A stretch of 64,000 nucleotides of DNA from Streptomyces sp. TG1A-60 (lineage in GTDB: Bacteria > Actinomycetota > Actinomycetes > Streptomycetales > Streptomycetaceae): the NCBI RefSeq assembly GCF_037201975.1, contig NZ_CP147520.1, positions 1,426,001 to 1,490,000 on the forward strand, written 5' to 3'. This document shows positions 22,760 to 44,363 of this stretch, one piece after another (the stretch's first letter is position 1; every line of letters starts with the position of its first letter). The position numbers and the translations under genes were made by a program. Below the pieces are notes generated by a model. That model made no database searches. It had not been told where the DNA came from and worked only from the letters and a program-made list of their open reading frames with translations.

Positions 22760-22898
22760 GAGGCTCCCCGGAGGAGTGCCTCCCGGCAGGAGGACGGCCT
22801 TCCACCAGAACGGACGACGGAACTCTGTGGCCGCGCATCCCGTACCCGGGAGCGGCGGTCAGGCGCGGGGGCGCCGGGAGCACGACGTGGAGGACGGC

Positions 22899-28800: not shown

Positions 28801-28928
28801 GGTCCCTGCTCTCGGCGCTCGACGACAGGGGCGGCGAGGGCGCCGGCAGCCTGCGCAGGGAGCTCATCGAGGAAGCGTCCGCCGACGACCTGTTCGACCT
28901 GATCGACAACGACCTGGGATTGGGCTGA
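22899..28928 (+). CDS. Type I polyketide synthase, loading ACP plus module 1 (ACP-KS-AT-DH-KR-ACP)
   Basis: About 2,009 residues from ATG 22899, chosen because GGAGG (22889-22893) precedes it. Order: loading ACP (~23075-23290, Ser in DYGYNSLAAVEL), KS (~23350-24635; [23 protein letters not shown] all intact), AT (~24990-25860; GHSQGE and YASHS, the methylmalonyl-type signature), DH (~26100-26930; DHAVYGTVLLPG and HPALLDAAFHAQ), KR (~27590-28130; NAD site GGTSGLGAQLA, LDD B-type motif, SSVAG and GQGNYAAAN), ACP (~28440-28680, GLDSLG), then a C-terminal docking region ending in DLFDLIDNDLGLG. There is no ER, so the product is an alpha-methyl-alpha,beta-enoyl chain. The loading ACP without AT or KS-Q implies starter loading by the operon's fatty-acyl-AMP ligase. 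Confidence 0.95.
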   Translation: MADAMDERTRRSERAEEVRAEEVRAGEVRAGESGPTESLAGRLAGLPADRRPAALLDLVREETAGLAGTDPLDIDPETAYRDYGYNSLAAVELTSRLSRATGLELPLTLLFDHPTASAVAEHLLGLLGFAHPEDDAPEAEAEGAGMGHAHDDDPIAVVGMACRYPGGVTSPAGLWDVAAAGRDVVSDFPRDRGWDLDGLFSADPEQPGTSYTRTGGFLDPVADFDAEFFGISRREALAMDPQQRLLLQTVWESLENAGIDPGRLKKSRTGVYVGSSGQDYEIVARSGPGELEGYWGIGAAGSVLSGRVAYAFGFEGPALTVDTACSSSLVGVHLAVHALRRGECTLAVAGGATVMATPKVFTEFSRQRALSPDGRCRSYAEAADGTGWAEGIGVLLLERLSEARRNNHRVLALIPGTAVNQDGASNGLTAPNGGSQQRVITQALADAGLRPRDIDAVEGHGTGTTLGDPIEIDALAAVFGHDRPAGQPLRLGSLKSNIGHSQAAAGVGGLIKMIQALRHEVLPRTLHVDRPTPKADWSGGGISLLTEATPWPRGERVRRAGVSAFGVGGTNAHVLVEEAPTVQAGTPAPEARTPRPELPSSSTPLATPPVVPWVLSAKTPAALRAQARRLHTHLTTAQPDATPTQVGAALAHTRAHFDHRATLTGTTRTELLDAVAALARGEEAEQVTRAHARTGKTVFVFPGQGSQWIGMSRELAAAHPVFAEELSACAAALAPYTDFSLDEVLSGAPGAPPLDRVDVVQPALFAVMAALAALWRHHGVHPDAVVGHSQGEIAAAYVAGGLSLQDAARVVALRSKAIAEMAGRGGMASVTASPERLLPLLEGWDGLISVAAVNGPSSMTVSGDSDALDGLLARCAAENIWARRVPVDYASHSPQVESLKERLAEVLSPVAPRSGEVRFHSTVTAGEFDTSGLDADYWYRNLRRTVRFEEVVRALLDQGHTTFVEVSPHPILTFAVEQTVERTGGREGGSGRTAATVLGSARREQEQAQFTASLAAAHAHGIPVDWDTVFDPASARNVELPTYSFESTRYWAAPRPAAGDAGDAGLRSTGHRLLTAGAELADGSGWLFTGRVSRDTHGWLDDHAVYGTVLLPGTAFVDMAVLAASHVGCDVVEELTLEEPLVLPDDGAVDLQASVGAPDARGRRPVAVHSRPADAAGGDDWTRHAGGFLAPSPAHGDASPAPLSWPPSGADPLDVDGLYDRLADRGFGYGPVFRGLRAAWRRDGVLLAEVDAAAAGGSGGAEGYGVHPALLDAAFHAQLTELAGADGASGQAWLPFTWSGVRVVRPGATHLRVSLTTLGEGTVRMSAVDAAGAPVVTVDSVVARPVAPARLVGARGPADSLFRVDWQAAPGPGPAPDSVSGRWAVLAEDGTTMASPDAVIGSVSGADSTAPPLPTYPGLPHLSAELDAGEPVPDTVVALVPAAHGTPTAEAARARAHHTLALLRGWLADERFADARLVLVTRDAVATAPGSAVAPDLAPLWGLVRTAQSEHPGRFTLVDLAGDACDDPARVLPVALAAEEPQVAVRNGVLHIPRAVRVRGASGGPLPFEPDGTVLITGGTSGLGAQLARHLAAERGARHLLLASRRGRDAEGVSELTAELAGLGAQVTVAACDVTDRSATAALLASVDAAHPLTAVVHSAGALDDGLLEALTPERLDRVLAPKVDAALHLHELTESVPLAAFVLFSSVAGTIGGPGQGNYAAANTFLDAFAQWRRAQGLPALSLAWGLWEEASDMTRHLGDAEVAQLGRSGLAPLATDEGLRLFDAVHGTEDALLLPARLDLGALRTQAREGSLPAVLRALVPAAQGPAGRSCPALPARLAAAPPEERDVLVLAAVAAEVAVVLGYEDAGAVDPERPFKELGLDSLGAVRLRNRLSQVTGLSLPSTLVFGHPTVPALAAHLRTLLDEHGAGGQEAAAAPGVHTDLDRLAGLLPSVADSDVAAVRTRLRSLLSALDDRGGEGAGSLRRELIEEASADDLFDLIDNDLGLG
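22941..23000. repeat. 15-bp tandem repeat in PKS N-terminus (4 units)
   Basis: Two identical units (GCCGAGGAGGTGCGG) and two diverged ones encode AEEVR-AEEVR-AGEVR-AGESG in the linker before the loading ACP. Low-complexity charged linker; frame is kept. Confidence 0.9.
23976..24064 (+). repeat. KS tract identical to module 2 copy
   Basis: About 89 bp in the module 1 KS is identical to 29652-29740 in the module 2 KS. Further long matches follow around the EGHGTGT motif and the SNIGHSQAA motif, giving a mosaic of identical and diverged stretches. Confidence 0.8.
24726..24915 (+). repeat. KS-AT linker repeat, copy 1
   Basis: 190 bp identical, base for base, to 30366-30555 in the second PKS gene. 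It encodes the KS-to-AT linker ([20 protein letters not shown] onward). Identity at synonymous sites implies recent gene conversion. Confidence 0.95.
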
Positions 28929-28931
28929 ATC

Positions 28932-31900
28932 ATGCCGGACGACGACAGGACACTGCGGTACCTCAAGCGTGTCACCGCCGAACTGCAGTCCACCCGTGAG
29001 CGGTTGGTACAGGCCGAGCAGCGCGCGTACGAGCCGGTCGCGGTGGTGGGCATGGCCTGCCGCTATCCGGGACTCGTGACCTCCCCCGACGACCTGTGGG
29101 ACCTGGTGGCCGCCGGGCGCGACGTGGTCGCTGACTTCCCCGCGGACCGGGGCTGGGACCTGGACCGGCTCTTCCACGACGACCCGGACCATCCCGGCAC
29201 GACGTACGCCAGGGCCGGCGGGTTCCTGGAGGGGGCGACGGAGTTCGACGCGGAGTTCTTCGGCATCGGCCGCACCGAGGCCCTGGCGATGGACCCGCAG
29301 CAGCGGCTGCTCCTGCAGACCGCCTGGGAGTCCCTGGAGAACGCTGGCATCGACCCGGGCGGCCTGCGCGGCTCGCGGACGGGTGTGTTCGTGGGGACGA
29401 CGGGCCAGGACTACGCGCAGTTGGCGCGGTCGGGTCCGGACGAGCTGGAGGGCTACTGGGGCATCGGCTCGGCGGGCAGTGTGCTCTCCGGTCGCGTCTC
29501 GTACGTGCTGGGGTTCGAGGGCCCGGCCCTCACGGTCGACACGGCCTGTTCGTCGTCGCTGGTGGGCGTGCACCTGGCGGTGCAGGCACTGCGCCACGGC
29601 GAGTGTTCGCTGGCCCTGGCGGGCGGCGTGACGGTGATGTCCACACCGGGCGTCTTCACCGAGTTCAGCAGGCAGCGCGCGCTCTCGCCGGACGGCAGGT
29701 GCCGTTCGTACGCGGAGGCCGCCGACGGCACCGGCTGGGGCGAGGGGGTCGGGGTCGTCCTGCTGGAGCGCCTCAGTGAGGCCCGCCGAAACAACCACCG
29801 TGTCCTGGCGGTCATCTCGGGCTCCGCGGTCAACCAGGACGGCGCCAGCAACGGCCTCACCGCCCCGAACGGCGGCTCCCAGCAGCGCGTCATCACCCAG
29901 GCACTCGCCGACGCCGGTCTGCGCCCCCGCGACATCGACGCGGTCGAGGGGCACGGCACCGGCACCACACTCGGCGACCCCATCGAGATCGACGCCCTCG
30001 CGGCGGTCTACGGCCGCGAGCGGACCGCCGTGCACCCGCTGCGGCTGGGCTCGCTGAAGTCCAACATCGGGCACAGCCAGGCCGCCGCGGGCGTCGGCGG
30101 ACTGATCAAGATGATCCAGGCGTTGCGCCACGAGGTGCTGCCCAGGACCCTGCACGTCGACCGGCCCACGCCCAAGGCCGACTGGTCCGGCGGCGGCATC
30201 TCCCTGCTGACCGAGGCCACCCCGTGGCCGCGCGGCGAGCGGGTCCGCCGGGCCGGGGTGTCCTCGTTCGGCATCAGTGGCAGCAACGCGCACGTCGTGG
30301 TGGAGGAGGCACCGCTCGACGCGTCCCCCGACACCGGGGCGGGGCGGGAGCCGGAGACCCTGCCGGTGGTGCCGTGGGTGCTGTCCGCCAAGACGCCGGC
30401 CGCCCTGCGCGCCCAGGCCCGCCGCCTGCACACCCACCTCACCACCGCACAACCGGACGCCACCCCCACCCAGGTCGGCGCCGCCCTCGCCCACACCCGC
30501 GCCCACTTCGACCACCGGGCCACCCTCACCGGCACCACCCGCACCGAACTCCTCGCGGGGCTGGCGGCGTTCGGCGCGGGGGAACTGCCGGGCAACGCCG
30601 TCCTGGGAGTGGCGGCGCGGGCACGGAAGACCGCCTTCCTCTTCTCCGGGCAGGGGTCCCAGCAGGCCGGTACGGGCAGCGGACTCGCCGCCGCCCACCC
30701 GGTGTTCGCCGACGCCCTGGCCGCGGCCCGCGCCGAGCTCGACCGGCATCTGGAGCTGCCCCTGCGCCAGGTGATGGACGCCGCCGACGGCACCCCCGAG
30801 GCGGAGCTGCTGCACCGCACGGGCTGGACGCAGCCGGCGCTGTTCGCCCTGGAGGTGGCTCTCTACCGCCTCGTCGAGTCCTGGGGCTTCACACCGGACT
30901 TCCTGCTGGGCCACTCGATCGGCGAGCTGTCCGCCGCGCATGTCGCCGGGGTGCTGTCCCTGGCCGACGCGAGCGCCTTGGTCGCCGCGCGCGGCAGGCT
31001 CATGCAGGCCCTGCCGGAGGGCGGCGCGATGGTCGCCGTGGAGGCGACGGAGGACGAGGTCCTGCAGAGCCTGCGTGACGACGGCCGACTGGCCGTGGCC
31101 GCCGTGAACGGGCCCCGCTCGGTCGTCGTGTCCGGCGCCGCCGACCCCCTCGCGGCCTGGCAGCGAGCGTGGCAGGAGCAGGGCCGCCGCACCCGCCGAC
31201 TGCGCGTCAGCCATGCCTTCCACTCGCCTCTGATGCGGCCGATGCTCGAGGAACTCGCAGCCGTCGCGGGCGGCTTGAGCTACCACGCGCCGACCGTACC
31301 GATCGTTTCGAACGTGACGGGGACCTTCGCCGACGCGACCGACCTGGCCACGCCCGACTACTGGGTCCGCCACGCCGCGCACCCCGTCCGCTTCCACGAC
31401 GGGGTACGCCGCCTGGAAAGCGCGGGGGCGACGGCGTTCCTGGAGCTCGGGCCGAGCGGTGTACTGACCTCGATGACCCGGCACTGCCTGCGCGACCCGG
31501 GGTCCGCGGTGCTCGCTCCCGCCCTCGACGGGCGCGGGCCCGAGCCCGCCGCCCTCATGACCGCGCTCGCCGAACTGCACACGCACGGCGCGTGCGGCGA
31601 CCTCGCGGCCCTCCTTCCCCGGGACGCGGCTCGCCAGGTGCCGCTCCCGACGTACGCCTTCCAGCCGCGCCGCCACTGGATCGACGTGCCGCAGACCGTA
31701 CGGGGCACGGAGTCCGGCCCGTCGGCGGACCAGGCGGCTCCGGCACCGGCCGCGCAGGAAGAGCCGAGCCGGGACGAGCCGGAGCGGGCGGACCAGGAGC
31801 GGGACGTCCTCGGGCTGGTTCGTACCCAGGCGGCCCTCGTCCTCGGTTACGAGGACGGCGCGCGGATCGACCCGGACCTGACGCTGCTGGAGCTCGGTAT

Positions 31901-32870
31901 CGACTCGCTCGGCGCCGTCCGCTTCCAGCGGCGCCTCGCCTCGGTCACCGGCCTCGACCTTCCGGCCACCCTCCTGGTCGACCACCCCACCCCGGCGGCC
32001 CTCGCGGAGCACCTGCGGCCGCTGCTCGCCCCGAGCGCTCCGACCGACCCGGCCGACCTGCTCAGGGACCTGCACCGGCGAGGGCAACTCGGTGACGCCG
32101 TACCGCTGCTGCGGGCGGCTGCCGCGGACCGGCCCACCTTCTCCACGGCGGAACGGCCCGCGGGCCCGCCGGAGTCCGTGCTGGTCTCCGACGGACCCGC
32201 TACGCCCGCCGTGGTCTGCGTGCCGTCCTTCCTGGCCGGGTCGGGCCCGCACCAGTTCGCGCGGTTCGCCGCCGGATTCACCCACCGGCCGCGGATGTCC
32301 GCGCTCACCCTGCCCGGCCTCGGCACCTCGGCACTGCTGCCCGGCTCGTGGCGGGCAGCGGTCGACAGCCTGGCCGCCGCCGCGCTGCACACCGCGGGCG
32401 GTGCCCCGCTGGTCCTCGCGGGGCACTCCATCGGCGGCGCCCTCGCGCACGCCGCCGCGGCGTCGCTGGAGCGCACCGGGCACCGCGTCGAAGGGGTCGT
32501 GCTGATCGACACCTACGAACCCGAACCCGCCCAGCAGCAAGCGGTGTTCGCCTGGGCGATGGGCCGCATCCTCGCCCGGGACGGCGCGCCCGCCGACATC
32601 GACGCCGACGGCGTGCTGGCCATGGGCGGCTATCTGCGGCTCCTCGACGACTGGGTGGCCGACCCGCTGACGGCGCCCGCGCTGCTCCTGACAGCCGAGC
32701 GGGGGCCCGACGCGCCGGACGGCGCGGCCTGGCGGCTCTGGCAGGCCGCGGACACCGTCACGCCCGTCACCGGCGACCACTTCTCGCTCCTCGAGGAGCA
32801 CGCCGCTCACACGGCACGCACCGTCGAGGAATGGCTTCGAAAGGAACTGTCATGCAGCCCGTCGGCATAG
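28932..32870 (+). CDS. Type I polyketide synthase, final module (KS-AT-ACP-TE)
   Basis: A 1,312-residue protein starting 3 bp after the first PKS. An N-terminal coiled-coil docking helix ([20 protein letters not shown]) leads to KS (~29035-30310, DTACSSS present), AT (~30630-31530; GHSIGE with HAFHS, the malonyl-type signature), ACP (~31800-32030; [12 protein letters not shown]) and a type I thioesterase (~32200-32850; [14 protein letters not shown] and final His in [11 protein letters not shown]). There is no KR, DH or ER, so the chain leaves with a beta-keto group. With module 1 the predicted backbone is starter-CH=C(CH3)-CO-CH2-CO-. The last 19 bp overlap the next gene. Whether TE hydrolyses, cyclises or hands over to the KASIII-like and AfsA-like partners is unknown. 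Confidence 0.95.
30366..30555 (+). repeat. KS-AT linker repeat, copy 2
   Basis: Second copy of the 190-bp block at 24726-24915, in the same position between KS and AT of module 2. Both ends break off sharply into diverged sequence. Confidence 0.95.
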
Positions 32871-33868
32871 TCGACTTCGGGAGCTATCTGCCCGAGAACG
32901 TGGTGGGGCCCGAGTTCTTCCTGGACGAGAACGCCCCGGTGGACCCGCTGGCCAACACCCCGCTGTTCCGCGTGCCCCCGACCCGGCACCACGTCGCCCC
33001 CGGCGAGCGGGCAGCCGACATGATCGCCAAGGCGGCCCGGCCGGTCTTCGAGCGCCTCGGCAAGGGGCCGGCGGGCCAGGTCGACGTGCTGCTGACGAAC
33101 GTGCTGCTGCCGGACGAGCCGTTCATGGGTGTCGGCGCCCAGGCCGCGCACGCCCTCGGCATCGATCCCGAGTGGATCGTGGACCTGCACAACGGCGGCT
33201 GCGCCTCGTTCCCGTACATGCTCTCGCTGGCCCAGAAGATCATGGCCGACGGAGCGGCACACACCGCGCTGATCGCCAACGTGCAGAACACCGCGGGCCA
33301 GATGTACGCCCAGTCCGAAGTGCGCAAGCTGTCGCACGCGCCGATTCCGGGCGACGGCTGCGGCGTGGCCTACCTGGAGGCCGGCACGGGTTCGCCGCTC
33401 CTCGGGGTGCGGACCCGAAGCATCCCCGCGTACTCCGTGGACCTCGGCATCAAGACCCCGGACGGGCGCAGGTACTGGGAGCCGGGCGAGGGCCAGATGG
33501 ACATCGACTTCGACGCCGGCAAGACGACGGAGATCCTCCAGCGCGGCAACACCCTCGTGCCCGAGCTCGTCGGGAAGCTCTGCTCAGACCTCGGGGAGCA
33601 GCCGTCCGACATCGACGTGCTCGTCACCAACCAGCCGAACCGGATCTTCCTGAAGAACTGGCGCCAGGCCCTGAAACTGGACGAGGCGCGGCACTTGGAC
33701 ACCTTCGACCGCTACGGGAACCTGTACGGCGCCGCCGTGCCCGTCACCCTCGACCGGGCGGCCCGCGCCGGAGACCTGCGTGACGGCGACCTCGTGGTGA
33801 TGTCGGGGTTCGCGCACGCCGGTGACTTCGCTGCGGCTGCTGCGGTGCGCTGGAACGGCGCCTCGTGA
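32852..33868 (+). CDS. KASIII-like enzyme with Cys-Asn-Asn active site
   Basis: A 338-residue thiolase-fold protein related to KASIII. Cys117 is present in [13 protein letters not shown] and Asn290 in [10 protein letters not shown], but the position of the catalytic His reads VTNQPNRIF, with Asn260 replacing His. Loss of this His argues against ordinary decarboxylative condensation. KASIII relatives with altered triads perform acyl transfer (ester formation) or non-decarboxylative Claisen coupling. ATG 32852 lies behind AAGGA and overlaps the PKS gene; its stop overlaps the next start (GTGA). I infer transfer or coupling of the PKS-bound chain. Confidence 0.85.
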
Positions 33869-35328
33869 GCGAGCTGAACGAGCGGGCCGGGCAGTCCGTC
33901 GAGAACGACCGGCTCGCCGCGACGGAGCGGTTCGGTGAGGCAGAACGCCCCGGCGGGACCATGGAGTTCGACGTGATCGTCGTCGGCGCGCGCTGCGCCG
34001 GGGCCACGCTCGGCGCGCTCCTCGCGCGCCGCGGTCTGCGGGTCGCCGTCCTCGACCAGGCCGCAGAGATCCGCTCGACTCTCTCCTCGAACATCCTCCA
34101 GGCCGACTCCCTGGCCTTCCTGAACCGCCTCGGCGTGATGGAGCGGCTGCGCGCGGCCGGGGTCACCACCATGAGCCACGTCGACATGCGCCTGGAGGAG
34201 TTCCGTTGCCGGGCCGCGTTCCCGCAGGAGCCCGGCGACGTGGGCGGCGCGGCGTGCATCCGCCGCGAGGTCCTCGACCCGGTCCTGGTGGACGCGGCCC
34301 GCACGTCCGGCGCCGAGGTGCGGCTGGGCACCCGGGTCGTCGGGGTGATCCGGGAGGGCGGCCGCGTCACGGGGGTCCGGGCGGTGTCGGGCGGCGTCGA
34401 GGCGCGGCTACGGGCCCGCGTGGTGGTCGGCGCGGACGGGCGGAACTCGAAGGTCGCCGAGGTGTGCGGGTCCCGCATGTACCACGTGAGTCCCGGCGAA
34501 CGCAGCTACTACTGGACGTACTTCGAGGGCGCGGACACCGGTCCGCGGCCGACGTTCGTCTTCCACCGCTGGGGCGACCGGCACATGCTGGGCGGCCCCG
34601 CCGACAACGGCCTCTACATCGTGGGCGTCTCCCCGCAGCGCCACGAGCGGGAGAGCTTCCGCGCCGACCTCGACGGCTCCGTGCGCGCCCACGCGATGCG
34701 CTGCGCGCCGATCGCCGACGCCCTCTCGGGCGCCACCAGGGCGAGCAGGATCTACGGCATCCGGCGCTTCTTCGGCTACTTCCGCGAGGCGGCGGGCGCC
34801 GGCTGGGTGCTGCTCGGCGACGCCGGGCACTTCAAGGACCCGGCGGGCGGGCGCGGCATCGGCGACGCCTTCCACCAGGCGGAACGGCTCGCCGACGCGG
34901 TCGGTGACGCCATCGGGTCGGGCGTCCGGCTCGACCGCGCCGTCGCGGAGTTCGGCCGCTGGCGGGACCGCACGTACGCCGAGTACTACGGCCTGGCCGC
35001 GGATCTCGGCGTGGCCGGACCCATCGCGGGCGTCGTCCCGCGGGTCGTGCGCGGGCTGCACGCGCGCGGCAAGGTCGACGGCGTCCTGAACCTGCTGAGC
35101 CACCGGGCCTCCGTCCTGGAAGTCCTCACCCCGGCGCGGGTGCTCGGCGCCACGGGCGGGCATCTGCTGCGCGCCCCCGGCGGGCGCCGCGCCACGCTCG
35201 GCGAGCTGGGGCGGCTCGCGACCACCGAGATCCGGCGCAGGAACGCGATGCGCAAGCCCGTCTTCCAGAGCGGCCCGGCGCCGCGCCCCGTACACCAGGA
35301 CACGTCCGAACCGGAGCTGAGCCGATGA
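33865..35328 (+). CDS. FAD-dependent monooxygenase/reductase (geranylgeranyl-reductase-like fold)
   Basis: A 487-residue flavoprotein of the PHBH/geranylgeranyl-reductase superfamily. FDVIVVGARCAGATLGALLA is the FAD Rossmann motif (about residues 35-54), RVVVGADGRNSKVAE the middle motif, and WVLLGDAGHFKDPAGGRGIG the flavin-binding GD motif. The GTG start overlaps the KASIII-like stop. A ~30-residue charged N-terminal extension precedes the fold; an internal ATG near 33961 (MEFDVIVVG) is an alternative start. Oxidative tailoring (hydroxylation or epoxidation) of the polyketide is likely; the substrate is unknown. Confidence 0.85.
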   Translation: MSELNERAGQSVENDRLAATERFGEAERPGGTMEFDVIVVGARCAGATLGALLARRGLRVAVLDQAAEIRSTLSSNILQADSLAFLNRLGVMERLRAAGVTTMSHVDMRLEEFRCRAAFPQEPGDVGGAACIRREVLDPVLVDAARTSGAEVRLGTRVVGVIREGGRVTGVRAVSGGVEARLRARVVVGADGRNSKVAEVCGSRMYHVSPGERSYYWTYFEGADTGPRPTFVFHRWGDRHMLGGPADNGLYIVGVSPQRHERESFRADLDGSVRAHAMRCAPIADALSGATRASRIYGIRRFFGYFREAAGAGWVLLGDAGHFKDPAGGRGIGDAFHQAERLADAVGDAIGSGVRLDRAVAEFGRWRDRTYAEYYGLAADLGVAGPIAGVVPRVVRGLHARGKVDGVLNLLSHRASVLEVLTPARVLGATGGHLLRAPGGRRATLGELGRLATTEIRRRNAMRKPVFQSGPAPRPVHQDTSEPELSR

Positions 35329-36383
35329 CCAGCACGATCCCGCACACCACCGCGCGCGGCCAACTGCCACCCCCGGGCGTCGAACTGGCCTTCGAGCAGA
35401 CGGTGCCCCGTGCCCTCGCCCACCGCAGGCAGATCGGAGAGGTGTTCGTCACCGACTCCGCGCAGGGGTCCGACGACGATTTCCACCTCTCCTTCCAGGT
35501 CCCCCGCGCCCACAGCCTCTGGTCGGACCAACGGGCCGGTTTCCACGACCCGTTCGCGTCCGCGGAGGCCGCGCGGCAGTCCATCTTCGTGCTGCTGCAC
35601 CGCCATGTCGGGGTGCCCGTCGGGCTGCCCTTCAGCCTCCAGCGGATCACGCTGCGGGTGACGGACCCACAGGCGTACGCCCACGACGGGACGTCGGCGC
35701 TCCAGGGTTATGTGCACTACCGGGTCACCGAACGCCAGGGCAAGGGCTCCGACGTGGTGAGCATGGTCCTCCAGGGCGTCATGGAGATCGGCGGGCGCCC
35801 GGCGATGACCCTGAGCGCGGTGCTCGCCTTCATGTCGCGGGAGGACTACGACATCTTCCGGGCCTTCCAGCGGGCGCAGAAGCCGGTGGCCGACGCCCGC
35901 CTGACCCCGGCACGGCGGCTCGACGCCGGCCTGGTGGGGCGCGAGAACCCGCGGAACGTCGTCATCGGCCTGCCGGGACCGGAGGCGCGGACGGACGGCG
36001 GACCCGACGACGGGGCGTTCCGCTGCCTGCTGGCGGCCGACCCGCACCACCCCGCCTTCTTCGACCACGAGTACGACCATGTGCCGGGCCCCCTGATGGT
36101 CGAGGGCATGCGGCAGGCCGCCGTGGCCGCGGCCTGCCGGGCCGGGGCGATGGCCACCCCGCACGCCCTCACCGTCGGCTGCGAGGCGGCCTTCCTGGAC
36201 TTCGCCGAGTTCGAGGCCGACCTGGTCCACGAGGCTGAGGTCGGCGCCCCCGGCGCGGACGGCCGCGTCCCGGTGGCCGTGGTCCTGCGGCAGTTCGGCA
36301 AGCCCATCGTCGAGGGCCGCATCGACCTGCTTCCCGACGCGGCCCCGCGTCCCCGATCGACCGCGCGAGCGGACGGAGTCTGA
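35325..36383 (+). CDS. AfsA-family (A-factor biosynthesis) hot-dog protein
   Basis: A 352-residue AfsA/ScbA-like protein with two hot-dog repeats. Recognised blocks are ALAHRRQIGEVFVTD near the start and FFDHEYDHVPGPLMVEGMRQ in the second repeat. AfsA joins a beta-ketoacyl thioester to dihydroxyacetone phosphate, which then closes to a butenolide. The upstream PKS module lacks beta-carbon processing and so delivers exactly a beta-ketoacyl group. The gene lies mid-operon, not with a GBL receptor gene, so it is more likely biosynthetic tailoring than hormone signalling, although a signalling role remains possible. Start ATG 35325 overlaps the preceding stop. Confidence 0.88.
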   Translation: MTSTIPHTTARGQLPPPGVELAFEQTVPRALAHRRQIGEVFVTDSAQGSDDDFHLSFQVPRAHSLWSDQRAGFHDPFASAEAARQSIFVLLHRHVGVPVGLPFSLQRITLRVTDPQAYAHDGTSALQGYVHYRVTERQGKGSDVVSMVLQGVMEIGGRPAMTLSAVLAFMSREDYDIFRAFQRAQKPVADARLTPARRLDAGLVGRENPRNVVIGLPGPEARTDGGPDDGAFRCLLAADPHHPAFFDHEYDHVPGPLMVEGMRQAAVAAACRAGAMATPHALTVGCEAAFLDFAEFEADLVHEAEVGAPGADGRVPVAVVLRQFGKPIVEGRIDLLPDAAPRPRSTARADGV

Positions 36384-36386
36384 TCC

Positions 36387-37748
36387 ATGGCAGTTGCACA
36401 CACGGGTGAAAGCGCAGGAAACCGGCGACGCGTGGCGGTCGTGGGGGCGGGAATCTCCGGTCTCACCGCGGCGCTCCGCCTCGACCTCCTCGGGTACGAC
36501 GTCGAGCTCGTCGAGGCGGCCGAGATCCTCGGCGGCCGTTTCGGCCTCGACAAGCTCGGCGACCGGCAGGTCATGACGGGCGGGAAGAACATCGGCCGCC
36601 GCTACCACACGTTCCGCTGGTTCACCTCGGAGCTCGGCGCGGACGCGTACGACTCCTTCGGCTACAACGCGTCCCGCATCAAGGACGGCGAGATCCTCAC
36701 CCTCGACAGCGAGCGGCGAAGCCAGACCCTGAAGAACATCCGGCGGATGGGCTCGGCCCGCGACTTCGCACGGATGGCGGCGATGGCGGCGCGGATCCGA
36801 GCCGACGAGCGCAACCGCTTCCTCGGTTCGCGCTACTTCAGCGGCATCTCGCGGCGCCACGACCACGCCCCGCTCAGCTCGTTCTTCGGGCGCGAGATGA
36901 CGGACATGCTGGTGCGTCCCATGGTCATCCGCAACAACGGGGCCGAGCCCGACGAGGTCTACCCCGGCACGTTCGGCACCAACCTGGCGATGCTGATGGA
37001 CCACTATGATCAGCTGGCCGGTGGCATCCAGCCGGTCCTGGACGCGTTCGCCAAGCGGGTCCCGGTGCGGCTCGGCGCCACCGTGGAGGGCCTCGAGGTC
37101 CGCGACGGCAAGGTCACCGGACTGCGCGTCCTGGAGGGCGGGGCGCCCGCGCGGACCAGCGACTACGACGGCGTGGTGCTGGCCACCCCGGCCTACGCGA
37201 CCGCCGAGATCGTCCGCTCCGCGCGGCCCGCGCTCGCCCGGCGGCTGTCGGACGTGAACTACTTCCCGTCCACCGTGGTACTCGTCGAGTACGACCGGCC
37301 CGTCTTCGGCCACGACGTGCGCGCGCTCGCCATGGACGACGGGCCGTGCAGCAACGCCGGTTCGTACGGGATGGAGGAGCGGCACATCGTCCGCTACACC
37401 TACAGCGGGCACGAGGGGCGCCTGACCGACCTCAGCCCGGAGAACATCGACCGGCTGACCGGTGAGACCGAGGAGCGCCTGGTGAAGTACCTGGGGGCGC
37501 CGCGCGCCGAGCGCGTCAACCTTCTGGTCAAGCATTGGAAGGCGGCCTACAGCGGCTACCTCCCGCACCACGCCGACTTCCTCGCCGAGGTTCGGGAGAG
37601 CGTCGCGGGCGTGGCGGGCCTGGAGCTCGCGGGCGACTACATCCAGGGCGTGTCCATCGAGGCGTGCGCCCGCACTGGCCGTGCCGCGGCCGGCCGGCTC
37701 GCCGCGCACCTCACCTCGCCCTCGGCACCCGCCCGGGCGGCGGCATGA
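36387..37748 (+). CDS. Flavin amine oxidase/desaturase-like FAD oxidoreductase
   Basis: A 453-residue FAD enzyme of the amine-oxidase/phytoene-desaturase type. The N-terminal VAVVGAGISGLTAALRLDLL followed by ELVEAAEILGGRFG is the classic GxGxxG...E...GGR pattern, and the C-terminal LELAGDYIQGVSIEACARTG completes the flavin site. Substrates of this group include carotenoids, amines and protoporphyrinogen; here I infer dehydrogenation of the polyketide chain or lactone. It follows the AfsA-like gene by 3 bp and overlaps the next SDR gene (ATGA). Confidence 0.85.
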   Translation: MAVAHTGESAGNRRRVAVVGAGISGLTAALRLDLLGYDVELVEAAEILGGRFGLDKLGDRQVMTGGKNIGRRYHTFRWFTSELGADAYDSFGYNASRIKDGEILTLDSERRSQTLKNIRRMGSARDFARMAAMAARIRADERNRFLGSRYFSGISRRHDHAPLSSFFGREMTDMLVRPMVIRNNGAEPDEVYPGTFGTNLAMLMDHYDQLAGGIQPVLDAFAKRVPVRLGATVEGLEVRDGKVTGLRVLEGGAPARTSDYDGVVLATPAYATAEIVRSARPALARRLSDVNYFPSTVVLVEYDRPVFGHDVRALAMDDGPCSNAGSYGMEERHIVRYTYSGHEGRLTDLSPENIDRLTGETEERLVKYLGAPRAERVNLLVKHWKAAYSGYLPHHADFLAEVRESVAGVAGLELAGDYIQGVSIEACARTGRAAAGRLAAHLTSPSAPARAAA

Positions 37749-38563
37749 ACAGCCCGGCGGACTGGGCGGTGGTCACCGGCGCCTCGTCCGGCATCGGCGA
37801 GCACCTCGCCCGGGGCCTGGCCGCGCGCGGGTACGGACTGTGGCTCGTCGCCCGCTCCACCGACGCCCTCGAACTGCTCGCCAAGGAGCTGCGCGACCGG
37901 CACGGCGTGCCGGTGCGCGTGCGGACCTGCGACCTCGCGGACCCGGCCGCGCGGCGGGTGCTCGAAGAGGAACTGGCCGGGCAGCCGGTCTCCGTGCTCT
38001 GCGCCAACGCGGGCTTCCCCACCTGCGGGCCGTTCAGCGAGAACGACCCCGCCAGGGAGAGCGCCGAGGTCCAGGTCAACGTCGTCTCACTGCACGCGCT
38101 GACGCAGGCGCTGCTGCCGGGCATGCTGGCTCGGCGGCGCGGCGGGATCCTGGTGACCGGCTCGACCGCGGGCTGTCAGCCTGTGCCGACCGCGGCCACC
38201 TACTCGGCAAGCAAGGCGTTCGCCAACACCTTCGCCGAGTCGCTGCACGTCGAACTGCGCGGCACCGGGGTGAACTGCACCCTGCTCGCCCCCGGCCCCG
38301 TGCGCACCAACTTCTACGCGGTGGGCGGCATGTCACGGCTCCAGGAGCGGAGGTTCCTGGCGTGGCTGACGCCCGAGCGGGTCGCCGAGGCGGGCCTGCG
38401 CGGCCTGGCGCAGGGGCGCCGCGTGGTGATCCCGGGGCCGGTCGCCAAGGCCCAGTACCTCGCGGGCCGCCACACGCCGCGTCCCCTGCTCTTTCCCGTG
38501 CTGCGCGCGCTGGTGCTGCCCGTCTTCCGCAGCGCGCGGAGCGGCTCCCACACCCGCCCGTGA
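37745..38563 (+). CDS. Short-chain dehydrogenase/reductase
   Basis: A 272-residue classical SDR: WAVVTGASSGIGEHLARGLA cofactor motif, LCANAGFPTCG (NAG), and the catalytic SerTyrLys set in LVTGSTAGCQPVPTAATYSASK. It is of the DltE/KR-like group with a hydrophobic tail (LLFPVLRALVLPVF) that could sit against the membrane. Within the operon it could reduce a ketone of the polyketide or the enone of an AfsA-type butenolide. Coupled to the upstream flavoprotein gene by an ATGA overlap. Confidence 0.87.
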   Translation: MNSPADWAVVTGASSGIGEHLARGLAARGYGLWLVARSTDALELLAKELRDRHGVPVRVRTCDLADPAARRVLEEELAGQPVSVLCANAGFPTCGPFSENDPARESAEVQVNVVSLHALTQALLPGMLARRRGGILVTGSTAGCQPVPTAATYSASKAFANTFAESLHVELRGTGVNCTLLAPGPVRTNFYAVGGMSRLQERRFLAWLTPERVAEAGLRGLAQGRRVVIPGPVAKAQYLAGRHTPRPLLFPVLRALVLPVFRSARSGSHTRP

Positions 38564-38603
38564 GTCGGTACCCCCAACTTCCGCAAGTGAGAGGAACAGC
38601 TAC

Positions 38604-39620
38604 ATGGACGGCAGAAAGCACCGTTGGTTCATCCTCGGGGCGTCGCTGATACCGCTGGTCGCGGTGTTCGGCGCCATGGCCCTGCTGTGGAACAAGATCT
38701 TCAGCTGGTCGGACGTGGTGGTCCTGGTCATCATGTACGCGGTCTCCGGCTTCGGTATCTCGGCCGGTTACCACCGGATGCTCACCCACCGCTCGTTCGA
38801 GACGTACAAGCCCATCCGCGTCGCCCTGGCCACCGCCGGGGTGATGGCCGGACAGGGCCCGCCGCTGATCTGGGCGGCCCACCACCGCAAGCACCACCGC
38901 GTCGCCGACAAGCCCGGTGACCCGCACAGCCCCCACCTGGACTTCGAACCGGGCTTCAAGGGCACGATGGCCGGTCTCTGGCACGCCCACCTGGGCTGGC
39001 TCTTCGACGTCAACCTCACCTCCGACCCGATGCGCTACTGCCCGGACCTGGTGCGCGAGAAGCCGCTGCGCTGGCTCAGCGAGAACCTCCTGCTGGTCAC
39101 CGCCGCCAGCGTCGTGCTGCCCGGCCTCATCGCCTACGCCATCACCGGCGGCGACTGGCAGGCCGGCCTGACCGGCATGCTCTGGGGGGGCCTGGTCCGC
39201 ATCTTCCTGATCAACCACATGACCTACGCGGTCAACTCCGTCGGCCACGTCTTCGGCCGCCGCCGCTTCGAGACCACCGACCAGTCGCGCAACGTCGCCT
39301 GGCTCTCCATCCCCTCCTTCGGTGAGGCTTGGCACAACAACCACCACGCCTTCCCTCGCTCCGCCCGCCACGGCATGAAGTGGTACGAGATCGACCTCTC
39401 CGCGATCCTCATCTGGAGCCTGGAGAAGACCCACCTCGCCTGGAAGGTCGTGCGCATCGACCCCGAGCGCATGGAGATGCGCGAGGCGGGCGTCAGCCGC
39501 GTCAACGCGTTCTCCCTGGACAAGAGGGAACTCCTGGAGACCCAGCAGAACATCGCGCCCATGGCGGAGCGCCGTCGCGAGGCCCGTGAGGCCGATGCCT
39601 CGCTGGTGGACGTGGAATAG
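38604..39620 (+). CDS. Membrane fatty-acid (acyl-CoA) desaturase
   Basis: A 338-residue integral-membrane di-iron desaturase of the Delta9 acyl-CoA type. Three histidine boxes are visible: HRMLTH (57-62), HRKHH (94-98) and HNNHH in EAWHNNHHAFPRSARHG. Membrane helices flank them (LGASLIPLVAVFGAMALLW; VVVLVIMYAVSGFGI). It inserts a double bond in a long acyl chain. Being followed 35 bp later by the fatty-acyl-AMP ligase gene, it probably shapes the starter acid of the PKS. GAGAGGAA (38588-38595) serves as ribosome site. Confidence 0.92.
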   Translation: MDGRKHRWFILGASLIPLVAVFGAMALLWNKIFSWSDVVVLVIMYAVSGFGISAGYHRMLTHRSFETYKPIRVALATAGVMAGQGPPLIWAAHHRKHHRVADKPGDPHSPHLDFEPGFKGTMAGLWHAHLGWLFDVNLTSDPMRYCPDLVREKPLRWLSENLLLVTAASVVLPGLIAYAITGGDWQAGLTGMLWGGLVRIFLINHMTYAVNSVGHVFGRRRFETTDQSRNVAWLSIPSFGEAWHNNHHAFPRSARHGMKWYEIDLSAILIWSLEKTHLAWKVVRIDPERMEMREAGVSRVNAFSLDKRELLETQQNIAPMAERRREAREADASLVDVE

Positions 39621-39655
39621 CCCGGCCACCGGACGAGCAGACGGGAATCACGTAC

Positions 39656-41281
39656 ATGGAGTTATTCCACGCCCTGACCAACGGGGCTTCGCACGGCGTG
39701 CTGCACGAATGGACGGGCGAGGAGTTCGAGCACACCCCCTGGCGCGACGTCGTCAGGGACGCCCACGGCATGGCCGCCGAGCTCCGCACCCTCGGCGTCG
39801 GGCCGGGCACCCGGGTCGCCGCCATCCTCGCCAACACGCCCGACACGGTCCGCGGCCTGCTGGCGATCTGGCTGGCCGGCGGCGCGGTGGCCTCGCTGCC
39901 GCTGCCGACCCGCGGCCAGAGCCAGGAGGCGTACGGCGAGCAGCTGGTGGCGCTCTCGGCGCGGCTGGACCCGACGCTGCTCCTGGTCGACGACTGGCTG
40001 ACCGCCACGGTTCCCGCGGAGCTCAGCAAGGAACTGCCGGTCCGCGGCTGGTCGTCCCTGCGCGGCGCAGGACGCATCGAGCCGAGCCCACCGGGCCGGG
40101 ACGACGTGGCCTTCATCCAGTACTCGTCCGGGTCCACCAGCACCCCCAAGGGCTGCGCGCTGACCACCCGCGCCATCGAGCAGCAGCTGCAGATCATCCT
40201 GCACCTGACGGGCGGCCGACCCGGCGCCGACACCGTCGCCTCCTGGCTGCCGCTCTCGCACGACATGGGCATGTTCGGCTGCCTGCTGTACTCGTGGGCG
40301 TACGACTTCGACTTCGTGCTGTCGTCGCCCGACCGGTTCGGGATGGCGCCGCGTACGTGGTTCCGTGACATGTCGGAGTACGGGGCGACGATGACGGCGG
40401 GCACGAGCACCGCCGTGTACCTCGCGGCGCGGGCGCAGGGCCGCGGGGCGCTGCCCAAGGAACTGAAGCTGCGGGCTGCCGTGATCGGGGCGGAGCGCGT
40501 CGACTGGGACACGCTGGCGACGGCGACGGAGAAGTTCCGGCCGTTCGGTCTGTCCGACACCGCCTTCCAGCCCGCGTACGGCATGGCCGAGGCGACGCTC
40601 GCGGTGACCGGGAAGCCGTGGGCCCAGGCACCCAAGGCGCTCGCCTTCGACGGTCCCGCGCTCGTCGAGGGCTCGGTGATCGAGGTGGCGCCCGACCATC
40701 CGAAGGCGGCCCGGCTGGTCTCCAACGGCGTGACGCTGCCCGGGGTGTCGGTCCGGGCGGGGAGCGGCGGCGGCATCGCGGAGATCCTGGTGTCGTCGCC
40801 GAGTCTGGCCAGCGGCTACTACGCCGACCCCGGACGAACCGCCGCACGGTTCCAGGACGGCTGGCTGCGCACCGGCGACCTCGGCTTCGTGCGCGACGAC
40901 GAACTGTACGTCCTCGGCCGGGCCGACGACATGCTCTCGGTGGGCGGCCGGAAGGTCTACGCCTCCGAGATCGAGTCGGCGGTCGACTCCCTGAAGAACG
41001 TCCGCAAGGGCTGCGCCGTCGTCGTCGACGCGGGCGACTCGGGCATGTCCCGGCTCGTGCTGATGATGGAGCCCCAGGGCAACCCTCGGGACTTCCGGCC
41101 GATCGCCGAGGAGGCCGCCTCGCTGGCCCTGGAGAAGGCCGGGGTCGCGCTCGCGGAGTGCCTGTTCCTGGCGCGCGGGGTGCTCCCGAAGACGCCCAGC
41201 GGGAAGATCCAGCGCTTCCGCTGCCGCGCGCTGCTCGACGAGGGGCGGCTCGTGCCCGTGGCGCGGGTGACGCTCGCCTGA
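39656..41281 (+). CDS. Fatty-acyl-AMP ligase (FAAL-type)
   Basis: A 541-residue ANL enzyme. The ATP motif is [20 protein letters not shown] (STPKG), with [41 protein letters not shown] and the C-terminal catalytic Lys in [11 protein letters not shown]. SWLPLxHDMG and QYSSGSTxxPKG are characteristic of FAAL-type ligases that load ACPs and not CoA. It would activate a (desaturated) fatty acid and load the N-terminal ACP of the first PKS. The third codon is TTA (39662-39664), making its translation bldA-dependent. Only a weak GGGAA ribosome site is seen. Confidence 0.9.
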
Positions 41282-41416
41282 CCGGGACGAGGGGCCGGTG
41301 TGGGGCCAGGGTCCGCCACGCCCGCCCCGATCCGCCCGGTCCGCGCCACCCGACGTGCGCCGCTCGCTGCTCCTGCAGAAGGCGTACGCGGAGGGGAGGC
41401 CCGAATCCTCCTCGCA

Positions 41417-41481
41417 GGGTACGGGCGAAACGGGCGGTTCGGGCCTCCGCGGAGGCGGAACCGCCCGTATCGCCCGTACCC
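41417..41481. terminator. Large hairpin between PKS operon and rpoA
   Basis: The arm GGGTACGGGCGAAACGGGCG (continuing GTTC) pairs with its complement ending in CGCCCGTACCC at 41481, with one mismatch and a small bulge; the loop itself contains the palindrome GCCTCCGCGGAGGC. The 65-bp element is followed by TTCGT, not a T-run. It probably ends PKS-operon transcription or insulates rpoA. Only 53 bp separate it from the rpoA start, so the rpoA promoter may overlap it. Confidence 0.6.
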
Positions 41482-41534
41482 TTCGTGGTCTAGGGCGTCA
41501 CATAGCGGGCGCCGAACCACTGGAGGCAACACCC

Positions 41535-42557
41535 GTGCTGATTGCTCAGCGTCCGTCCCTGACCGAAGAGGTCGTCGACGAGTTCCGCTCCCGGTTCGTG
41601 ATCGAGCCGCTGGAGCCGGGCTTCGGCTACACCCTCGGCAACTCCCTCCGTCGTACGCTCCTCTCCTCGATCCCCGGTGCGGCGGTCACGTCCATCCGTG
41701 TCGACGGTGTCCTGCACGAGTTCACCACCGTGCCGGGCGTCAAGGAGGACGTCACCGACCTGATCCTCAACATCAAGCAGCTGGTCGTCTCCTCGGAGCA
41801 CGACGAGCCGGTCGTGATGTACCTGCGCAAGCAGGGCCCGGGCCCGGTCACCGCCGCCGACATCGCGCCCCCGGCCGGTGTCGAGGTGCACAACCCCGAC
41901 CTCGTCCTCGCCACGCTCAACGGCAAGGGCAAGCTGGAGGTGGAGCTGACCGTCGAGCGTGGCCGCGGTTACGTCTCCGCCGTGCAGAACAAGCAGGTGG
42001 GCCAGGAGATCGGCCGTATCCCGGTCGACTCCATCTACTCGCCGGTCCTGAAGGTCACGTACAAGGTCGAGGCGACGCGTGTCGAGCAGCGCACCGACTT
42101 CGACAAGCTGATCGTCGACGTCGAGACCAAGCAGGCCATGCGTCCGCGTGACGCCATGGCCTCCGCCGGCAAGACGCTCGTCGAGCTGTTCGGGCTCGCC
42201 CGCGAGCTCAACATCGACGCCGAGGGCATCGACATGGGTCCGTCCCCCACGGACGCCGCCCTCACCGCCGACCTGGTACTGCCCATCGAGGAGCTCGATC
42301 TCACCGTCCGGTCGTACAACTGCCTCAAGCGCGAGGGCGTCCACTCCGTGGGTGAGCTCGTGGCCCGCTCCGAGGCCGACCTCCTGGACATCCGCAACTT
42401 CGGTGCGAAGTCCATCGACGAGGTCAAGGCGAAGCTCGCCGGCATGGGCCTGGGCCTGAAGGACAGCCCGCCCGGATTCGACCCGTCCGCCGCGGCGGAC
42501 GCCTTCGGCGCGGACGACGACGCGGACGCGGGTTTCGTGGAGACCGAGCAATACTGA
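41535..42557 (+). CDS. rpoA: DNA-directed RNA polymerase alpha subunit (extra or relocated copy)
   Basis: A complete 340-residue alpha subunit beginning at GTG 41535, 8 bp after GGAGG (41522-41526). The N-terminal assembly domain contains [20 protein letters not shown]; the C-terminal domain contains [18 protein letters not shown] (Arg259 equals the DNA-contacting Arg of bacterial alphaCTD) and the helix-hairpin-helix [15 protein letters not shown]; the acidic tail ends FVETEQY. No frameshift or missing motif is seen. In Streptomyces rpoA normally lies between ribosomal-protein genes (rpsM, rpsK, rpsD, then rplQ); none is present here. It directly follows a biosynthetic operon and adjoins a truncated regulator gene. 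I infer a horizontally or internally duplicated copy, possibly a resistant target or a specialised polymerase subunit. Confidence 0.95.
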
Positions 42558-42583
42558 ACGCTGCGTGGCGCCGGCCATGGAGA

Positions 42584-42922
42584 CAGGGTCCAGGTGCCGT
42601 CCCAGTCGTTGTTGACGGCGCTCGTCTCCCAGATGCGGTGCCGCCCGTCGTGGAGGATTTGCGTGGCATGCGGGGTCAGACCGGAGTACATTCGGCGTCC
42701 CTGCCGCTGACGTCGCAGAAGGCCCCGGTTGACCATGCGGGTGAGGGTGGAGCGGACAGCCTGCTCGCCGACTCCGGCGCGGGCGGGGACGTCGATGATG
42801 CTGCCCGAGTACACGCACACGGGGCCTTCCGCCAGCATGTGGTTGCCGAAGAAGGCGAGCAGGAGCGACTGGGGACGCGACTGCGGACCGCCGGGGGAAC
42901 TGGGCGGATGCACGTCGTTCAC
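42584..42922 (-). pseudogene. PaaX-family transcriptional regulator, N-terminal fragment
   Basis: From about GTG 42922 the minus strand reads RPQSLLLAFFGNHMLAEGPV, GVGEQAVRSTLTRMVNRGLL and GRRMYSGLTPHATQILHDGR, the winged-helix N-terminal part of PaaX-like repressors, up to NNDWDGTWTL. Homology then stops at about 42584, only 27 bp beyond the rpoA stop, and the frame runs antisense into rpoA. The remaining two thirds of a normal PaaX protein are missing. The break coincides with the end of the rpoA copy, so the insertion or rearrangement that brought rpoA here probably cut this gene. Confidence 0.8.
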
Positions 42923-42971
42923 CTGCACCAGGTTACGGCCACCCGGTGTGTCCCCCGCGGGGAGTGCGGTG

Positions 42972-44363
42972 TCACGGCTGGTGCCGGTCGTTGGGGTGGG
43001 CCAGGTCGTAGGGGCGCGGATAGGGCGTGGGGTGATGGCGGACGTAGCGTGCCGGTGTGGAGGGGTCGGCTTCGGTGGCACGGGCGTTGAGGACGGCGGG
43101 ACCGGTGCCGTGCCAGCGGCCGGTGGTGATGCGGCCCTCCAGTGTGTGCAGGGCGGCGATCTGTTCGGCGGGGCTGAAGGTGCAGTGTCCGGCGTTCTCG
43201 ACGTAGGCCTGGCGCAGCAGGCGCGCGGAGCCGGCGGCGGAGACCGCGCGGCGCAGGGCGCTTTCGGCCTGTACCGGGATGAGCGCGTCCCCCGTGGTGT
43301 GTATGTTCATCTGCGGCTTGGTCAGCCGACCGGTGAACGAACTGGTTCTGCCCATCCGTTCCACGGCGTTCGGCTCCGCGCCGATCCGCGGGGCTCGGTT
43401 CAGGGTGGTGAGATCGGACTTCAGGGAGAGGCCGGCCTTGGCATAGAGGTCGGCGACCTCCTTGTGGAGCGGGGAGTGGTGGAGCATCGCGGCGTAGTCG
43501 ACGCCGGTGTTCCAGGACATGTTGCCGCCGACCCGGCTCTCGGCCTCGTGGCGCCAGACGAAGGCCGGGAACTGCACCAGCCCCATGACGGCCTGGTACT
43601 GGTTGGCCTGCTGGGTCTCCCGGTCGGTCGGTCCGGGGCGGGGCTGGGAGGGGTTGTTCCAGCCGGGGATGTTGTGCAGGGCGGCCGCCAGTGCGATGCG
43701 GGCCCGCCCGGTGGCGGTGCCCTGCGCCTGGGCGACGATTCCTGCCAGGGCGTTCGCCGCGTCGGTGGCGGCGGCCTGGCTCTCCAGGCCGGTCAGACGG
43801 AGGTCGGCGCCGGGGGCGAGGAGCGTCTTCAGCGCGAAGACCGGGTCCAGCGTGCTGTTCCAGTTGGCGACGCCGCCTTGGACCAGGCCGCACATGGACA
43901 GTGAGCCCGTGATGCGCTCCGCGTGGCGTTCGGCGATGGCGGTGGTCACGAGCCCGCCGTAGGAGGTGCCCCAGGCGATGGTGCGGCGGGCGGTTCCGAA
44001 GCGGACGGTGAAGGCGTCGAGGGTGGCGAGTTGGTCGGGCACCGCGTCGGCCACCGCCCAGCCGTTGCTGGCGTACGAGGAGCCGATGAGCGCGTAGCCC
44101 TGGTCCAGCAGGAGCGACTTCGTGGCGTCGTCGGGGGCGTTGCGTGCGGGGTTGGGGACTCCGGTCGGTGTGTAGCCGTGGCTGTACAGCAGGACCGTGC
44201 CGTTCCAGTGCGCGGGGATGTCCATCGTGTATGCGGCGCCGGACGGCAGGCGGCCGTCGATGTGGGCGTCGGTGTCGGCGGCGTGGGCGGCCGGGGTGAA
44301 GGGGGCGGCGAGCAGCAGGGCAGCCAGGGCGACGAGCGTACGCGTGCGGATGCGGGGCTTCAC
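42972..44363 (-). CDS. Secreted alpha/beta hydrolase
   Basis: A 463-residue exported hydrolase. A Sec signal peptide (RTRTLVALAALLLAAPFTPA, cleavage likely after AHAA) is followed by VLLYSHGYTPTG (oxyanion region), the nucleophile elbow AWGTSYGGLV (Ser), HTTGDALIPV (Asp) and VENAGHCTFS (His), a complete triad. The family resembles secreted esterase/peptidase-like proteins of actinomycetes; the substrate cannot be inferred. It is monocistronic, leftward, and unrelated in orientation to rpoA. Confidence 0.85.
   Translation of the reverse strand: MKPRIRTRTLVALAALLLAAPFTPAAHAADTDAHIDGRLPSGAAYTMDIPAHWNGTVLLYSHGYTPTGVPNPARNAPDDATKSLLLDQGYALIGSSYASNGWAVADAVPDQLATLDAFTVRFGTARRTIAWGTSYGGLVTTAIAERHAERITGSLSMCGLVQGGVANWNSTLDPVFALKTLLAPGADLRLTGLESQAAATDAANALAGIVAQAQGTATGRARIALAAALHNIPGWNNPSQPRPGPTDRETQQANQYQAVMGLVQFPAFVWRHEAESRVGGNMSWNTGVDYAAMLHHSPLHKEVADLYAKAGLSLKSDLTTLNRAPRIGAEPNAVERMGRTSSFTGRLTKPQMNIHTTGDALIPVQAESALRRAVSAAGSARLLRQAYVENAGHCTFSPAEQIAALHTLEGRITTGRWHGTGPAVLNARATEADPSTPARYVRHHPTPYPRPYDLAHPNDRHQP

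Follow-up and report, generated by a model that had tools for sequence, protein, structure and literature searches.

A second, apparently dispersed RNA polymerase alpha-subunit gene beside a polyketide/fatty-acid cluster in Streptomyces sp. TG1A-60

The window analysed here is a stretch of 64,000 nucleotides from Streptomyces sp. TG1A-60 (contig NZ_CP147520.1, positions 1,426,001 to 1,490,000, forward strand). It contains a complete rpoA gene, termed rpoA2 below, which follows a PKS/fatty-acid cluster and precedes the remnant of a paaX-like regulator gene. The features are as follows, numbered from the first base of the window.

22776..41281, plus strand: PKS/fatty-acid cluster preceding rpoA2, not tied to rpoA2 by the present evidence
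22776-28928, plus strand: cluster gene, PKS KS-AT-DH-KR-ACP
28932-32870, plus strand: cluster gene, PKS KS-AT-ACP-TE
ends at 33868, plus strand: cluster gene, FabH-like
33865-35328, plus strand: cluster gene, FAD oxidoreductase
35325-36383, plus strand: cluster gene, AfsA-like
36387-37748, plus strand: cluster gene, amine oxidase-like
37681-38649, plus strand: cluster gene, protein without a Pfam match
38604-39620, plus strand: cluster gene, desaturase
39656-41281, plus strand: last cluster gene, fatty acyl-AMP ligase-like
41388..42585, plus strand: rpoA2 unit, comprising leader, gene and about 28 bp (92% to the plasmid-borne copy of NZ_CP109481; megablast and leader alignment)
41416..41482, plus strand: long leader hairpin of 13+11+5 pairs (folding, z -6.7 for 41395-41534; leader alignment)
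41494..41513, plus strand: short leader hairpin GGCGTC-ACATAGCG-GGCGCC (folding and leader comparison)
41522..41526, plus strand: ribosome-binding site GGAGG, within the signature GGAGGCAACACC..GTG (leader comparison)
41535..42557, plus strand: rpoA2, accessory RNA polymerase alpha subunit, 340 aa, GTG start (ORF, TIGR02027, genome protein search, residue comparison)
42584..42900, minus strand: paaX-like regulator gene remnant (Pfam PF07848; matches to the intact loci of four relatives)

The frame at 41535-42557 (plus strand) is intact over 340 codons, and its product belongs to the RpoA family, exceeding the curated cut-off of TIGR02027 over its full length (378.1 bits in a profile search; cut-off 227.8). 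This result bears out the earlier note, which had described a complete, undamaged alpha-subunit gene. The GTG start lies 3' of GGAGG at 41522-41526 and 253 bp past the end of the last cluster gene (41281), correcting the 254 bp given before. A protein search placed rpoA at two sites in the 7.83-Mb, one-contig genome, the extra copy at C1:1467535 and a housekeeping copy at C1:3204586 (minus strand); simple relocation of rpoA is ruled out by the presence of both. The housekeeping copy, which had been anticipated elsewhere in the genome, lies beside rpsK and rplQ in the order rpsM-rpsK-rpoA-rplQ-truA, and rpsD, which was thought to stand between rpsK and rpoA, is absent from that stretch as read from translations. 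The missing rpsD is therefore no mark of displacement beside the extra copy, and the missing rpsK and rplQ are; no ribosomal-protein gene adjoins rpoA2. Thus, the claim that rpoA2 lies outside the ribosomal operon stands, and the use of rpsD as a sign of it does not.

The extra copy is no exact duplicate: on alignment it departs from the housekeeping gene at 40 of 1020 bases and in 11 of 340 residues, leaving the two proteins 97% identical. The base differences number 19 in the 705 positions of codons 1-235 and 21 in the 315 positions after them. The residue changes, with the housekeeping letter first, are L54I, I56V, L104P, M136V, A244T, A248V, E255D, I269V, A307G, T318S and G330A. Separately, the only rpoB locus of this genome (C1:3236200-3239507, minus strand; L242-L244) reads as two frames, one of 911 and one of 341 codons, so that an essential gene appears frameshifted; the likeliest cause is an assembly error, which is relevant to other frames of this genome.

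Together with a leader of its own, the rpoA2 gene makes up a solitary unit of about 1.2 kb. On its 3' side, the paaX-like homology to the loci of four relatives stops at exactly 42584 in all four, with the boundary to the rpoA2 unit uncertain by 2 bases, and the remaining part of paaX was not found within the 64-kb window. The simplest reading is that the unit, or DNA carrying rpoA2, reached its present site by rearrangement; rpoA2 would have come to lie beside the PKS cluster via insertion or rearrangement at the broken paaX gene. The truncated paaX-like gene adjoins an alpha/beta hydrolase-like frame (42972-44363, minus strand), and the matching stretch (window 42584-44363) occurs in the four relatives.

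A protein search found a second full-length rpoA in at least 18 of 121 Streptomyces genomes, this one among them, and extra rpoA pieces in three further fragmented assemblies (G032, G084 and G097). Megablast matched the rpoA2 unit to 26 plasmid records (22 of them Streptomyces), and all four records whose surroundings were compared carry full-length second copies. A scan of species genomes returned at least 119 stretches, with L083, L116, L165 and L166 lacking an encoded alpha; the remaining stretches are titled Streptomyces, Actinacidiphila, Streptantibioticus, Streptomycetaceae or Actinobacteria bacterium, and those from Actinacidiphila and Streptantibioticus are housekeeping rpoA. Sorted by flanking DNA, the 119 rpoA2 loci make about 80 groups, a number that short flanks may inflate and in which some genomes are entered twice. 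No neighbour protein is common to all 22 loci compared (the widest family occurs at 6 of 22, at differing distances) or to all 119. Nor do rpoA2 loci have a transposase, integrase or similar gene in common; the surroundings of the plasmid copies L005 and L006 do include annotated transposases, and one neighbour family at three loci resembles a transposase. Carriage by phages gained no support, since neither phage records nor viral contigs contained a match to rpoA2.

By position, rpoA2 lies within 6% of a contig end in 6 of 12 genomes, where 1.4 would be expected from a hand calculation. Genomes were counted if a single chromosome-sized contig carried the two genes and the housekeeping gene fell at 0.39-0.63 along that contig; G007 and G110, whose contigs seem rotated, were left out, as were four drafts that do not place the genes on a contig of this kind. 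Two rpoA2-type places occur together in G254 (on one contig) and as the pairs L109 and L160, L180 and L185, and L079 and L154, the species besides G254 being S. noursei A-2-1, S. mesophilus and Streptomyces sp. RB17; these genomes possibly hold three rpoA genes. Judged from these sequences, rpoA2 looks like a family of dispersed accessory alpha genes in many Streptomyces, of which the gene in the window is a member.

The leader of the window copy folds into a 67-base hairpin (z -6.7 over 41395-41534), and a hairpin likewise lies between rpsK and the housekeeping rpoA. Neither a canonical sigma-70-type promoter nor a T-tailed terminator was detected in the window leader, which carries little weight in a GC-rich genus, and Rfam matches were weak, of microRNA type, and judged to be due to chance. 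The short hairpin has a housekeeping counterpart with the loop AAATAGYG and with stem changes on both sides of pairs. In housekeeping rpoA leaders (e.g., L002 and L056-L071), this seven-pair hairpin lies just 5' of the ribosome site and is possibly a regulatory RNA element of rpoA. Of 62 housekeeping leaders, 59 have the motif 5' of the ribosome site; all seven pairs are present in 53, and one pair is GC in 30 rows and AT in 29. The motif was also found in 78 rpoA2 leaders, with six pairs in 50 and seven in 16. In these counts the best-pairing motif per leader was chosen, which favours pairing. The loop word ACATAGCG occurs in 46 of 89 rpoA2 leaders compared to none of 62 housekeeping leaders.

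GGAGGCA precedes the start in all 22 second copies first compared, where the start codon is GTG in 19 and ATG in 3 (L005, L006 and L051). Housekeeping genes start with ATG throughout and mostly have another ribosome site; GGAGGCA occurs in 17 of 62 rows, 16 of which had been retrieved by that signature. A search with the leader-and-start signature hit 66 of 392 Streptomyces genomes, and a reversed control hit none. The 68 places found comprise 58 with GTG (57 genomes, 15%) and 10 with ATG, the latter a mixture; none of the GTG places examined had housekeeping neighbours. The rpoA2 set beyond the first 22 was retrieved by this leader signature, which is there by construction; leader and ribosome site are conserved in 22 of 22 copies retrieved without it. 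As a separate observation, L071 (G069), which was taken as a housekeeping rpoA, has a leader whose ribosome site, GGAGGCAAAACCCATG, is rpoA2-like; this may be a relic of conversion in the opposite direction or of the ancestral leader.

The most likely interpretation of the gene itself is that rpoA2 yields a working alpha subunit with an altered C-terminal domain (CTD), which would enter part of the RNA polymerase pool. Residues 246-310 carry one to eight changes in all 89 different full rpoA2 genes and none in 61 different housekeeping genes. Of the 62 housekeeping rows behind the latter number (two of them identical), 29 had been retrieved as best matches to the window protein and 16 by the leader signature. 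Because of this selection bias, the 20 lowest-scoring housekeeping genes were added; 4 of these 20 divergent genes carry one or two changes each (4 of 81 in all), which softens the initial 0 of 61. I269V occurs in 75 of 89 rpoA2 genes and in none of the housekeeping genes examined. The dN/dS ratio of rpoA2 compared to housekeeping genes was 0.107 versus 0.004 in the CTD, 0.090 versus 0.045 in codons 41-230, and 0.29 versus 0.06 in the tail, as estimated from sampled sequence pairs rather than from a tree and without the 20 divergent housekeeping genes.

The residues compared with E. coli alpha are those that we take to be the assembly set of the N-terminal domain (NTD) and the DNA-binding set of the CTD. 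The equivalents of R45, L48, K86, K200, R265, N268, C269, G296, S299 and E302 are kept in 89 of 89 rpoA2 genes and those of V173, V180 and K298 in 88; the E80 equivalent is D in all 89, as in housekeeping genes. Conservative changes recur at the D259/E261 pair, presumably the sigma contact (E253D in 10 and E255D in 26 of 89 rpoA2 genes). Most CTD changes are conservative, as in I269V, A307G and E255D, and they leave the known DNA-binding residues intact; they could therefore be relaxed drift with little effect. A dosage copy, which would simply add alpha under some condition via its own leader while its CTD changes lacked function, would account for this conservatism and for the retained DNA-binding residues, as well as for the intact frame, the strong ribosome site, the separate leader and the low overall divergence. 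We regard this alternative as rather unlikely, because every rpoA2 gene examined has a changed CTD and because I269V recurs in so many of them and in no housekeeping gene examined.

Among closed non-housekeeping frames, 76 of 83 are full-length and 7 are short (5 different loci; some genomes are entered twice), and 42 more are incomplete at sequence ends. These numbers and the dN/dS ratios support the conclusion that rpoA2 frames are mostly intact under purifying selection. A non-functional passenger, by contrast, would be a duplicate that was spread by arm recombination and plasmids and that looks intact through conversion from the housekeeping gene. That idea fits the roaming sites, the gene conversion described below, the presence of a few broken copies (7 of 83) and a dN/dS above that of the housekeeping gene. 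We consider it improbable, since the CTD keeps a dN/dS of about 0.11 where conversion is weaker, 76 of the 83 closed frames are full-length, and leader and ribosome site are conserved in the 22 copies retrieved without the signature.

Phylogenetic trees gave different answers for different parts of the gene. In the whole-gene tree, rpoA2 is not one clade (p-AU 5e-6), and several copies pair with the rpoA of their own genome. For codons 40-230, a single rpoA2 clade was rejected (p 8e-27), and the nearest row was the housekeeping gene of the same genome in 14 of 18 cases, a second copy in 2 and another housekeeping gene in 2. For codons 245-340, a single rpoA2 clade was not rejected (p 0.39); the best tree does not itself unite them in one clade (6 label changes, where shuffles need 19), and the nearest row was the own housekeeping gene in 2 of 18 cases, another second copy in 10 and another housekeeping gene in 6. 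The leader tree (101 columns) splits 22 rpoA2 rows from 46 housekeeping rows by one branch with a support of 91 (not starred). The longest identical tract among 46 housekeeping genes belonged to the own genome in 17 of 18 pairs. It measured 209 bp for the window copy, compared to at most 142 bp with others, and tracts reached 616 bp in single-contig genomes and 770 bp in G099, a draft of about 1020 contigs. Within the CTD, the own housekeeping gene ranks first in 7 of 18, so this domain is not exempt from conversion. Leaders of one origin, combined with a middle part of the gene that matches the resident copy, imply repeated gene conversion. These comparisons support the view that the alpha NTD has probably been kept near the resident copy by repeated conversion with the resident rpoA, in either direction, and that the alpha CTD has been converted less.

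Recent, independent duplications of rpoA within each genome are very hard to reconcile with these results. Several pairs are sisters in the whole-gene (coding-sequence) tree, and the case of S. avermitilis was read in this way by Mukhamedyarov et al. (2011; PMC3294249). However, leader and ribosome site are common to rpoA2 of different species and not to the resident gene, and many rpoA2 copies also resemble one another over a short 3' stretch. A recent own-genome duplication was rejected on the strength of the leader tree (support 91).

The proposal that the adjoining cluster makes an RNA polymerase inhibitor against which rpoA2 protects the producer drew on a duplicated core gene standing 253 bp past a cluster, and it is now barely tenable: no rpoA lies within the roughly 20 kb around the orthologue of the last cluster gene in any of four other genomes, where some cluster genes are present; homologues (E 1e-20) of 12 proteins of the cluster and right flank are absent from the examined flanks of 118 other rpoA2 loci (median 5.9 kb upstream and 2.3 kb downstream, such that distant cluster genes would be missed); the genome has a single rpoB locus; and the CTD changes A248V, E255D, I269V and A307G are also found in rpoA2 copies elsewhere. 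The last cluster gene had matches at E 1e-100 in 10 of 392 Streptomyces genomes, including this one, and the four others cited are those with close orthologues (70-82%). One of them, G069, has its own rpoA2 3.6 Mb away. The check proposed in the earlier note, whether related clusters keep an rpoA copy, came out negative in four of four genomes, and a resistance copy tied to the cluster was rejected on the basis of these four loci and the 118 rpoA2 loci. Membership of rpoA2 in the neighbouring PKS cluster is not supported by the sequence comparisons. The companion suggestion of a specialised polymerase survives in part, in that rpoA2 appears as a genus-wide accessory alpha gene with a changed CTD, and loses its tie to this cluster.

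Our preferred reading is that rpoA2 is an accessory alpha gene that roams the genus on its own, accompanied by a leader, that its product enters part of the RNA polymerase pool, and that the altered CTD shifts responses; taken as a whole, we hold this to be probable. In such a scheme, the RpoA2 protein would be made, it would dimerise with itself or with the housekeeping alpha through an assembly surface kept matching by conversion, and it would join part of the RNA polymerase pool, where its altered CTD may shift the response to UP elements or to certain contacts with sigma or activators.

A modest hint of a polymerase function comes from a divergent gene of 73 aa with likeness to the CarD/TRCF RID domain, which lies up to about 0.65 kb upstream of rpoA2 in 19 of 119 loci (about 426-644 bp upstream in L036). 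The match of its product is borderline and partial (22.9 bits against a cut-off of 23; 21 of 57 positions). Such a gene is present in 94 of 121 genomes, mostly elsewhere, and adjoins rpoA2 in 2 of the 19 rpoA2-bearing genomes of that sample. Among the 14 loci whose flanks were compared, the match extends over about 0.6 kb, and further only in the L036-L052 pair. A close form (at least 84%) occurs in 16 of 19 rpoA2 genomes compared to 18 of 102 others; the p value of 2e-8 was obtained with 17 of 102 (G097 left out) and is uncorrected for kinship. More tentatively, the dispersed accessory alpha could give rise to mixed RNA polymerases, with the NTD kept compatible by conversion and the CTD specialising, and so to an alpha-based switch of promoter choice that is linked in some lineages to the divergent CarD-RID-like protein; we regard this extension as possible and less than even in likelihood.

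Compared to housekeeping Streptomyces RpoA, whose closest solved chain by sequence is PDB 7vpd (presumably from S. coelicolor), RpoA2 has the same length, domains, and assembly and DNA-contact residues. The rpoA2 gene differs in lying outside the ribosomal operon, in having its own leader with a different ribosome site, and in mostly starting with GTG; its CTD varies where that of housekeeping RpoA hardly does. S. avermitilis MA-4680 has been named among genomes with two rpoA genes, and the duplication was called fairly recent (Mukhamedyarov et al., 2011; PMC3294249). The second rpoA of that strain probably belongs to the rpoA2 family, which, unlike the case as described there, is genus-wide with one leader clade; conversion can mimic recency. 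According to the same paper, Francisella likewise has two alpha genes per cell, one outside the ribosomal operon, and its alphas form mainly a heterodimer of diverged subunits (PMC3294249). In contrast to the Francisella alphas so described, RpoA2 has an NTD nearly identical to that of the resident copy and a different CTD; NTD divergence of the Francisella type at the dimer and beta/beta' surfaces was not found, the listed NTD positions being kept and the NTD being near the resident copy. For rpoB(S)/rpoB(R) of Nonomuraea gerenzanensis, a duplicated beta subunit, two kinds of polymerase and substitutions in the rifamycin region have been described (PMC5431353). That system resembles rpoA2 in that an actinomycete has duplicated a core subunit of RNA polymerase, and differs in involving beta, and not an alpha with CTD changes beside a single rpoB locus; no second rpoB of the rpoB(R) kind was found in this genome, whose one rpoB locus was read in pieces. 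Among the literature matches listed, from a search that mostly excludes subscription papers, no paper on a genus-wide Streptomyces rpoA2 was found, and the passages seen of cluster-mining papers with duplicated core genes (PMC10272871, PMC8510958) contain no mention of rpoA.

The wandering of rpoA2 is a caution for target-directed cluster mining, since an additional rpoA found close to a cluster is not necessarily there for resistance. Domain-wise gene conversion masks how old a core-gene duplicate is, a point of relevance wherever rpoA serves as a phylogenetic marker. If RpoA2 does enter RNA polymerase, about one Streptomyces species in seven would have two alphas that differ mainly in the CTD and tail, which would amount to a natural experiment on the role of the CTD in organisms known for their many sigma factors.
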